A stretch of DNA of 64,000 nucleotides, taken from assembly GCA_902812875.1 (NCBI GenBank), contig CADDZV010000001.1, positions 1 to 64,000 of the forward strand, in the 5' to 3' direction. Numbering within the stretch: position 1 is the stretch's first letter; the number at the start of each line of letters is the position of its first letter. Both the position numbers and the translations under genes were made by a program. The stretch is from Clostridiales bacterium (GTDB taxonomy: Bacteria; Bacillota; Sulfobacillia; CADDZV01). Positions 1 through 3,947 of this stretch are shown here, piece by piece. The notes below the pieces were generated by a model that saw only the letters and a list, made by a program, of their open reading frames with translations, was not told where the DNA came from and searched no databases.

Positions 1-497
1 GCTATGGGACGCTACGTTGCACCACTTGACCCGATGAAGAGGGGACTGAAACCCTGGATCTCGCTCGGGTTCACTGGTAGGTGAAGTTCGTTGCACCACT
101 TGACCCGATGAAGAGGGGACTGAAACCGTGGCCACGGGGGACGATCCGGAAACCGAGGACCAGTTGCACCACTTGACCCGATGAAGAGGGGACTGAAACA
201 TCGTGGCCGCAGTCACCGGGTCGGCTGGCAGCACGAGTTGCACCACTTGACCCGATGAAGAGGGGACTGAAACCGATGTGGCGTGGTACGAACGTACGAA
301 AGCTGCGCTGGTTGCACCACTTGACCCGATGAAGAGGGGACTGAAACCATGGAGGAGTTCCAGCGCCGTGATCCCGCGGGCAGGGTTGCACCACTTGACC
401 CGATGAAGAGGGGACTGAAACAGGTCGTCTACAGCGAACTTGTCGAAGGTGAGCAGCGGCGTTGCACCACTTGACCCGATGAAGAGGGGACTGAAAC
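1..497 (+). CRISPR. CRISPR array, trailer end (7 repeats visible)
   Basis: Seven identical 37-nt repeats start at 16, 90, 163, 237, 311, 385 and 461. Each begins GTTGCACCACTTGACC and ends GGACTGAAAC. The six complete spacers are 36-39 nt and differ from one another, and bases 1-15 are the end of a further spacer, so the array continues left of the window. A repeat ending in GAAAC usually points away from the leader, which would put the leader to the left and the oldest spacers here. No repeat follows 497. No cas gene is present in the window, so the type cannot be assigned. The repeat sequence shows no degeneration even at the last unit. Confidence 0.97.
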
Positions 498-551
498 CTT
501 TGTCACCTTCACCACGTACACCCGCTGGTTAATGGCCGGAAGGAGTGGGGG

Positions 552-1336: not shown

Positions 1337-1786
1337 CTAAACGGCACCGTCCGCAAGCTTGCCCAGCACCGCGAGGAGCCTATCCGTGGGCGGAGTGCCT
1401 TTTTCCCGGAACACCACCCGACCCGACTTGTCCACGATGATCACGGTACGTTCGATGCTGGTGCCGTTCGGCTTCAAGGTGCCGTAAGCCGCGGCCACTT
1501 GGCGGCCCTCGTCCACCAGCAACGGAAAACCAAGGCCCAGTTTCGCACTGAACCCCTGGTGCGACCGCAATGACCCCGGATTGATACCAACCAGTTGCGC
1601 CTCGTGGCGAAGAAATTCAGCCATGGCGTCACGCGCCGCGCTCAACTGGCTAATTCAGCCGGGCGTGTTGTCTTTGGGATAAAAAAACATCACCACACGT
1701 TTGACGCCGCGGTAATCCGACAGACGGAAGGTTCCGCCGGTGCCCTCCAACGTAAAATCCGGGGCGATATCCCCAACGTTAGCCAT
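1337..1786 (-). CDS. Selenocysteine-containing peroxiredoxin (AhpC/TSA, BCP-like)
   Basis: A peroxiredoxin of 149 residues is recovered if TGA at 1657-1655 is read through as selenocysteine 44. Before it stands a textbook start ([12 protein letters not shown]...[10 protein letters not shown]), and after it ISQLSAARD...VGINPGS continues in the same frame to TAG at 1337. In BCP-type peroxiredoxins the residue after NTPG is the peroxidatic cysteine, so the TGA sits exactly at the catalytic residue. The protein contains no cysteine anywhere, so there is no resolving Cys and it would be a 1-Sec enzyme needing an outside thiol or electron donor. A candidate SECIS hairpin follows the TGA. The ATG start (1786) overlaps the stop of the upstream Rieske gene by 8 bases, so the two are co-transcribed. 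The alternative is a nonsense mutation, which would be an unlikely coincidence of codon and position. An annotator unaware of Sec would split or truncate this gene. Confidence 0.85.
1619..1654 (-). promoter_or_regulatory. Candidate bacterial SECIS element
   Basis: Directly downstream of the TGA on the minus strand, AGCCA (1651-1647) pairs with TGGCT (1623-1619). Inside that, GGCG (1637-1634) pairs with CGCC (1628-1625) around a five-base loop CGTGA. The apical stem starts 17 bases after the TGA, within the spacing seen for bacterial SECIS elements, and the loop has the G and U expected for SelB contact. Structure drawn by eye; folding energy not computed. Confidence 0.6.
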
Positions 1787-2132
1787 GGGCTACCGTCCCC
1801 GAACCTTCCATATCGATCTCGAGGAACCCTTCGTGGACCCGCACAGGATACGTCCGCAGCGGGACATGGTTTTCTTCCTGGGCGCAAGGAGCTTCCGGCC
1901 GGACACGCGGCTCGCTGACCATGGCGCCGGTGTGAAGATCGAACCGGGCACCGTGCAAAGGACAGACGGCCACACCGCCTTCGACTTCGGTGAGCAGGGC
2001 ACAGCCCACATGCGAGCACACGGCATCCAGGGCATAAATCTGCCCGTCGACCTGTGCGAGCAGTACCGGACGGCCAGCAAACCACGTGTTTACCGCATTG
2101 CGACGCTCAAACACCTTCGTGGATACCGACAT
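1779..2132 (-). CDS. Rieske [2Fe-2S] ferredoxin-type protein
   Basis: Small soluble Rieske domain protein of about 117 residues. The two cluster-binding boxes are visible as CSHVGC (Cys39, His41) and CPLHGARF (Cys57, His60). There is no transmembrane segment, so it resembles the free Rieske ferredoxins that pass electrons to partner enzymes rather than a bc1 subunit. ATG 2132 is chosen because homology starts just after it. A TTG at 2147 has a better-placed GGGAG and adds five residues. Its stop overlaps the start of the seleno-peroxiredoxin, which makes that protein its most likely partner. The partner assignment is inference from gene order. Confidence 0.85.
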
Positions 2133-2254
2133 CGGACGATAAGCCAACTGCCAATCGCTCCCTTCTAATGATTCTGCAATTAATAAGTTATCCAAGCCGA
2201 AGGCAATTCCTGCTGCCTCGCCCAGGGAAATTGAGCCCGCTGCCGGCAGGATCT

Positions 2255-2264: not shown

Positions 2265-2321
2265 CACAGAAATTTCAATGCAAATATGGACTTTTCCGAA
2301 GGGGGTTTGAGGAGCGTGAAC

Positions 2322-3947
2322 ATGACGAACTACGATAAGGAGTACGCGACATTCCAATGGCAGGTGCCGGACCACTTTAACTTTGCTCGCGACACCTTTG
2401 ACCGTCATGCGGCCGATCCCAACAAGCTGGCCATGTGGTGGGTGGACGATGACGGCAACGAACGAAAAATCACCTTTGCGGAATTCCGCGACCGCTCTCG
2501 CCGGCTGGCAAGCGCCCTTACGGCCATGGGCATCCGCAAGGGTGAAGGCGTAATTGTTGTGCTGCCGCGGGTCGTCGCCTGGTGGGAAAGCCTTCTGGCC
2601 ACCCTGCGGGCGGGCATTGTCGTCAGCCCGGGCACGGTCCAGCTTACCCCCAAGGATCTGGCCTACCGGTTCCAGGCTTCGGAGGCGGTGGGGGTGATCA
2701 CCGATCAGGACAATGCCCCCAAAGTCGATGAGGCATTGAAAGAAACCGGCATCCAGCTCAAGGCCAAGCTCATCGTCGGTGGACCACGTGAGGGATGGAC
2801 CGAGTACGAACAGGTAGTGTCAAGCGGAGATCCCACGTTCACAGGTGCGGACACCCTCGCCAGCGACCCGGCCTTGCTGTACTTCACATCGGGGACGACC
2901 GGCTATCCGAAGATGACGCTCCATTCGCAGGCGTCGTACGGCATCGGCCATTTGATCACTGGCAAATACTGGCTGGACCTCACTCCGAACGACCTGCACT
3001 GGAACCTGTCCGACACGGGATGGGCGAAGGCGGCATGGAGCAGTTTCTTCGGACCGTGGATCGTCGGTGCCGCCCTGTTTGTGCATTACTCGCCGCGTTT
3101 CAACCCCAAGAAAACTTTGGAGCTTCTGGCCCGCTATCCGGTGACCACCTTGTGCGGGGCACCGACCAACTACCGCATGATTATCCAGGAGGACCTCTCG
3201 CCGTACCGCTTCCCGAGCCTGCGGCACTGCGTGGCAGCCGGGGAGCCCCTGAACCCGGAGGTCATCGACGTATGGCGGAAGGCCACCGGCCTCACCATCC
3301 GGGACGGGTTTGGCCAGACCGAGTCGGTCCTCGTACTGGGCAACTTCCCGCCGATTCCGGTCAAGCCCGGCTCGATGGGGAAACCGAGCCCTGGTTTCTA
3401 CGTCAGTGTGATCGACGAGAACGGTCACGAACTACCCGCCGGACAAGAGGGCGACGTAGCCATTCGGGTGCGGCCGGAACGGCCGGTTGGCCTTTTCAAG
3501 GAATACTGGAAGGATCCCGAGAAGACGCAGGCCAGCTATCGCGGTGACTGGTACCTCACGGGCGACCGGGCGTACAAGGACGAGGATGGCTATTTCTGGT
3601 TTGTGGGGCGGGCCGATGACGTGATCAAGAGTGCCGGTTACCGCATCGGGCCGTTCGAGGTGGAAAGCGTGCTTCTGGAGCACCCCGCCGTGGCGGAATC
3701 AGCGGTGGTAGCAAGTCCCGACCCCATCCGCGGAGAGATCGTCAAGGCCTTCGTGATCCTGGCCAAAGAGTACGAGCCGAGCGACAGTCTGGTGACCGAA
3801 CTGCAGGAGTTCGTCAAGTCCAAGACGGCACCGTACAAGTACCCGCGGGAGATCGAGTTCGTGCCCGACCTGCCCAAGACCATAAGCGGCAAGATCCGCC
3901 GTGTTGAGCTCCGGGAGCGGGAACTGAAAAAGAAGCTCAGGGCCTAG
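2322..3947 (+). CDS. Acyl-CoA synthetase (AMP-forming, medium-chain/acetyl-CoA synthetase-like)
   Basis: Adenylate-forming enzyme of 541 residues that activates a carboxylic acid to its acyl-CoA through an acyl-AMP. Visible are the phosphate-binding loop YFTSGTTGYPKM, the DGFGQTES motif, YLTGDRAYKDEDGYFWFVGR with the hinge region, and the C-terminal PKTISGKIRR lysine. The order and length fit the MACS (ACSM) branch, whose members prefer medium-chain or aromatic acids. Substrate cannot be read from sequence. ATG 2322 is preferred over upstream in-frame starts because GAGGAG lies seven bases before it. Its stop shares the bases CTAG with the stop of the converging permease gene. An SCP2 protein and a dehydrogenase-like protein lie nearby. 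Confidence 0.92.
   Translation: MTNYDKEYATFQWQVPDHFNFARDTFDRHAADPNKLAMWWVDDDGNERKITFAEFRDRSRRLASALTAMGIRKGEGVIVVLPRVVAWWESLLATLRAGIVVSPGTVQLTPKDLAYRFQASEAVGVITDQDNAPKVDEALKETGIQLKAKLIVGGPREGWTEYEQVVSSGDPTFTGADTLASDPALLYFTSGTTGYPKMTLHSQASYGIGHLITGKYWLDLTPNDLHWNLSDTGWAKAAWSSFFGPWIVGAALFVHYSPRFNPKKTLELLARYPVTTLCGAPTNYRMIIQEDLSPYRFPSLRHCVAAGEPLNPEVIDVWRKATGLTIRDGFGQTESVLVLGNFPPIPVKPGSMGKPSPGFYVSVIDENGHELPAGQEGDVAIRVRPERPVGLFKEYWKDPEKTQASYRGDWYLTGDRAYKDEDGYFWFVGRADDVIKSAGYRIGPFEVESVLLEHPAVAESAVVASPDPIRGEIVKAFVILAKEYEPSDSLVTELQEFVKSKTAPYKYPREIEFVPDLPKTISGKIRRVELRERELKKKLRA

Follow-up and report, generated by a model that had tools for sequence, protein, structure and literature searches.

Selenocysteine (Sec) peroxiredoxins of COG1225 carrying a TxxU motif were reported in 2005, when 43 such genes were found in Sargasso Sea data (PMC1088965). 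A peroxiredoxin is included among the selenoproteins of Symbiobacterium thermophilum (Zhang et al. 2006, PMC1794560), and Prx (PF00578) with the TxxU motif figures in a 2026 review (PMC13188914). Sec peroxiredoxins of COG1225 are already known as a kind, and the gene described in the current study adds one more. It lies in the window, i.e. the whole stretch of 64,000 nucleotides that was analysed, which belongs to a fragmented draft genome (1.85 Mb in 88 contigs, 96% complete).

The peroxiredoxin gene and its in-frame TGA

The peroxiredoxin gene occupies positions 1337..1786 of the minus strand, from an ATG at 1786-1784 to a TAG at 1339-1337, and has 149 codons, including a single TGA. This TGA is codon 44 (1655..1657, minus strand), where it would encode a putative Sec. 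The read-through product is 149 aa long and ends in ADGAV directly before the TAG. The initial annotation had placed the TGA at the position of the peroxidatic Cys of a BCP-type peroxiredoxin, with both flanks in one frame. Comparison of the read-through protein with BCP and other peroxiredoxin families bore this out: a single AhpC-TSA domain (PF00578, E=1.6e-33) covered residues 4-125 and spanned the TGA, matches to the sequences of solved BCP, Bcp1 and AhpE proteins were also obtained, and in an alignment with 29 relatives codon 44 fell in the catalytic column, which holds Cys or Sec without exception. Conserved sequence thus lies on either side of an in-frame UGA at a redox position, for which homologs with Cys exist, as is expected of a selenoprotein gene.

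Among the 30 aligned sequences, positions 41, 44 and 113 were invariant and Pro37 almost so; together, Pro37, Thr41, residue 44 and Arg113 are the active-site positions of the peroxiredoxin superfamily. The AlphaFold2 model had a pLDDT of 96.6, and the top matches found for it by Foldseek were BCP, 5enu, Bcp1 and AhpE. The protein therefore has both the fold and the active-site Pro, Thr, Cys/Sec and Arg by which the superfamily is recognized. No Cys codon is present in the gene, leaving the peroxidatic residue as the only Cys or Sec in the chain. This agrees with the 1-Sec form that had been proposed, the counterpart of the 1-Cys type.

From base composition alone, the chance of a frame staying open for 106 codons past the TGA is about 0.03, so that its openness is weak evidence. 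Judged from the sequence, the case for read-through rests instead on the homology found on both sides of the TGA and on the TGAs of relatives.

Sec/Cys alternation and the downstream hairpin

In a tree of 54 rows built with the catalytic column masked, the window protein fell into a clade of 20 (support 100/98), in which its nearest relative was L080 (99/84). Nine members of this clade are Sec forms and 11 are Cys forms. Over the 54-row tree, at least five changes between Sec and Cys are forced by supported branches, and the best tree has seven. Each genome that contributes a Sec member to the clade also encodes SelA. Among the genomes of the Cys members it was absent in five (f17) and kept in f9 and f154, and the Cys state is therefore linked to loss of the Sec trait only sometimes. 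Both states occur within genus g10, Sec in L044 and Cys in L077 and L082; the latter two and L078, compared with L044, were seen as Sec-to-Cys switches between close relatives that still carry SelA.

The Cys at CP+5 was missing from 15/15 Sec forms, against 8/39 Cys forms, an association that amounts to a trend. A general loss of the resolving Cys in Sec forms was considered and rejected, as there are too few tree-independent contrasts and 7 of the 11 Cys members of the clade also lack the CP+5 Cys. Six other Sec peroxiredoxins (L055, L058, L066, L067, L071 and L085) have a Cys at CP+54, not CP+5, which is a possible alternative resolving position.

A putative bacterial SECIS stem-loop was located just 3' of the UGA, at 1611..1647 (minus strand). 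Its upper stem of four pairs (GGCG/CGCC) and its loop (CGUGA) form the element GGCG-CGUGA-CGCC at 1625..1637 (minus strand), which is conserved among the Sec genes; below it, the outer helices AGUU/AAUU and AGC/GCU are given as folded, and their outer extent is uncertain. The apical loop begins 21 nt after the UGA, a position that agrees with the published bacterial SECIS model (PMC13188914). The lowest-energy fold varied with the stretch folded: 51 nt gave the SECIS-like fold (-17.4 kcal/mol), whereas 48 nt starting at the UGA gave a fold differing from this hairpin (-14.1 kcal/mol). Folding energy was not significant against dinucleotide shuffles (z -1.18) or against synonymous ones; it was therefore dropped as evidence for a SECIS, and comparative tests of the hairpin were used instead.

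When the clade's nine Sec genes were compared, every upper-stem pair was intact (36 of 36 cells for the four pairs). Two of these pairs vary, one between CG, GC and UG and the other between GC and AU, and both join third codon positions, so that the changes read in the aligned sequences as compensatory and synonymous. The hairpin rule (all four pairs plus GG or GU in the loop), which was fixed after the alignment had been seen and applied to related rows, was passed by 9/9 Sec genes and by 1/11 Cys genes, where synonymous codon choice predicts 0.73 and 0.53, respectively; five of the Cys genes are barred from passing (P_syn 0.000) by different amino acids in this stretch. Where the loop encodes Arg, the codon was CGU or CGG in 9/9 Sec genes but in only 2 of the 7 such Cys genes (Fisher p 0.005), a comparison with only three tree-independent contrasts. 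These results uphold the earlier claim of a SECIS-like hairpin at the right distance, with the support coming from comparison and not from folding energy alone.

The Cys gene L078 retains the hairpin (P 0.115), possibly as a relic or by chance. Given this hairpin and the alternation of Sec and Cys among close relatives, the clade offers a convenient natural series, which can serve to ask what a peroxidase gains from selenium and how recoding signals degenerate.

Sec machinery, related genomes and other readings of the TGA

The initial annotation had named selA, selB, selD and tRNA-Sec as the genes to look for, a genome devoid of Sec machinery being an argument against it. All four were found in the draft genome, and that objection fails. 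The tRNA-Sec has the anticodon TCA (UCA), SelB is nearly full length (model positions 1-576 of 581), SelA is present, and SelD has an in-frame TGA of its own within SGUACK. In addition, two adjoining genes of AhpC-type peroxiredoxins (C12:23313-24323, minus strand; within locus L073, C12:18000-30000) each have a TGA at the catalytic Cys (FTFVU) and probably encode two further selenoproteins. Standard annotation is likely to shorten or miss all three TGA-bearing peroxiredoxins of this genome.

Besides this genome, 32 of the 399 genomes of the phylum were listed with a TGA-containing peroxiredoxin match. SelA scored above its cut-off in 32/32 of these, compared with 255 of all 398 genomes other than this one (p 3e-7, hypergeometric test), a value that is only indicative because the genomes are related and the list is bounded by E-value. 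The position of the TGA was read in 15 genes (the window gene and 14 others) and fell on the catalytic codon in 15/15, the other listed matches being counted by the presence of a TGA alone. A search of its own order for relatives returned only the genome itself. With tblastn against plasmids, no relatives of at least 60% identity were detected, only lower ones, and the relatives found in a scan of genome contigs were all of the canonical Cys type.

The recurrence of the TGA bears on the possibility that the gene is a pseudogene, or that a sequencing or assembly error has made a TGA from TGC or TGT. A lone stop in a draft, metagenome-like assembly might suggest as much, but codon 44 is likewise TGA in six more distant relatives and, within the clade, in no fewer than eight other members, and its return at this codon in many related genomes makes an isolated base error unlikely. 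Moreover, the rest of the frame is intact, the hairpin is conserved at synonymous positions and the genome has the Sec machinery, all of which renders decay or error extremely improbable. No more credit can be given to a stop of translation at the UGA followed by a separate protein: a 102-aa ORF does exist downstream (1337-1645, starting with TTG), but its product would lack the catalytic residue as well as the initial strands, and the domain match continues across the UGA. That TGA is a general sense codon of this genome (Trp or Gly), as its in-frame presence in several genes might imply, is practically excluded, since TGA is an ordinary stop that ends 19 of the 42 window ORFs of at least 300 codons (counted mechanically, some not being genes), selA and selB have no internal TGA, the in-frame TGAs found are all at redox-active Cys/Sec positions, and a dedicated tRNA-Sec is present.

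Proposed mechanism and comparison with known peroxiredoxins

We conclude with high confidence that the gene encodes a one-selenocysteine peroxiredoxin, in which the UGA at codon 44 is recoded via SelB and the downstream stem-loop. The product is very probably a real selenoprotein working as a 1-Sec peroxidase. The following steps are inferred, from insertion of Sec in the cell to the peroxidase activity and its catalytic cycle. SelB carrying Sec-tRNA-Sec would recode the UGA, guided by the stem-loop just 3' of it. The selenolate of Sec44, held in a standard peroxiredoxin pocket (Pro37, Thr41 and Arg113), would then attack the peroxide and become a selenenic acid. As the chain has neither a Cys nor a second Sec, reduction of this selenenic acid would need an outside reductant, presumably an external thiol or a redox protein.

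Upstream of the peroxiredoxin gene, on the same strand, lies a gene for a sulredoxin-like Rieske [2Fe-2S] protein (1779..2168, ORF to 2408, minus strand), identified by profile matches to NCBIfam sulredoxin (E 4.5e-21, under the cut-off) and Pfam Rieske (E 1.5e-12). Its start is uncertain because the ORF runs into a divergent AMP-binding (acyl-CoA synthetase) gene (2286-3947, plus strand). Its stop overlaps the peroxiredoxin start by 8 nt (ATGGCTAA), and the two genes may therefore be co-translated. A conserved Rieske-peroxiredoxin operon was considered and rejected, as the Rieske neighbour was not found at the peroxiredoxin loci of relatives. The 8-nt overlap and the lack of an internal resolving residue in the peroxiredoxin would suit a Rieske protein acting as dedicated electron donor, in a relay from iron-sulfur to selenenic acid that needs no thiols; against this stands the missing Rieske neighbour beside the relatives' genes, and we consider such a relay very unlikely. 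To our knowledge, there is no precedent for a Rieske iron-sulfur donor to a selenenic acid. Separately, a CRISPR-like array was observed at the contig end (window 16-515 and beyond), in which a 37-nt repeat (GTTGCACCACTTGACCCGATGAAGAGGGGACTGAAAC) occurs seven times at a spacing of 73-76 nt.

The 1-Sec peroxiredoxin resembles BCP/PrxQ proteins (Sulfolobus Bcp1, 3drn; Xanthomonas PrxQ; 5enu) in fold (TM 0.83-0.92) and in the active-site motif PxxxTxx(C/U) plus Arg. Unlike them, it has no resolving Cys at CP+5 and no insertion of about six residues near columns 125-131 of alignment A2, and it scored below the curated BCP cut-off (PRK09437, NF006960; 69.6 vs 140 bits). It is not a two-Cys BCP, as judged from the lack of the resolving Cys and from this score. 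Of the BCP assignment first made, the BCP-like AhpC/TSA fold stands, but the protein is placed in a sister clade of shorter proteins, not with the canonical two-Cys type.

The 1-Cys AhpE of Mycobacterium tuberculosis (1xxu/4x0x) likewise has one catalytic residue and a similar fold (TM about 0.9), but it has Cys in place of Sec and shares 33% identity in the structural alignment. PrxU is a Sec enzyme from an anaerobic Firmicute. The window protein shares the peroxiredoxin domain with PrxU but is not a member of that family, its score of 43.4 bits being below the NF040737 cut-off of 270.

By their published descriptions, the Sec peroxiredoxins of COG1225 (PMC1088965; PMC1794560; PMC13188914) share with the window protein the AhpC/TSA domain, a TxxU motif whose Sec is the peroxidatic residue, a bacterial SECIS just 3' and widespread Cys homologs. 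Judged against those descriptions, the window peroxiredoxin differs in belonging to another lineage and in having no Cys at all.
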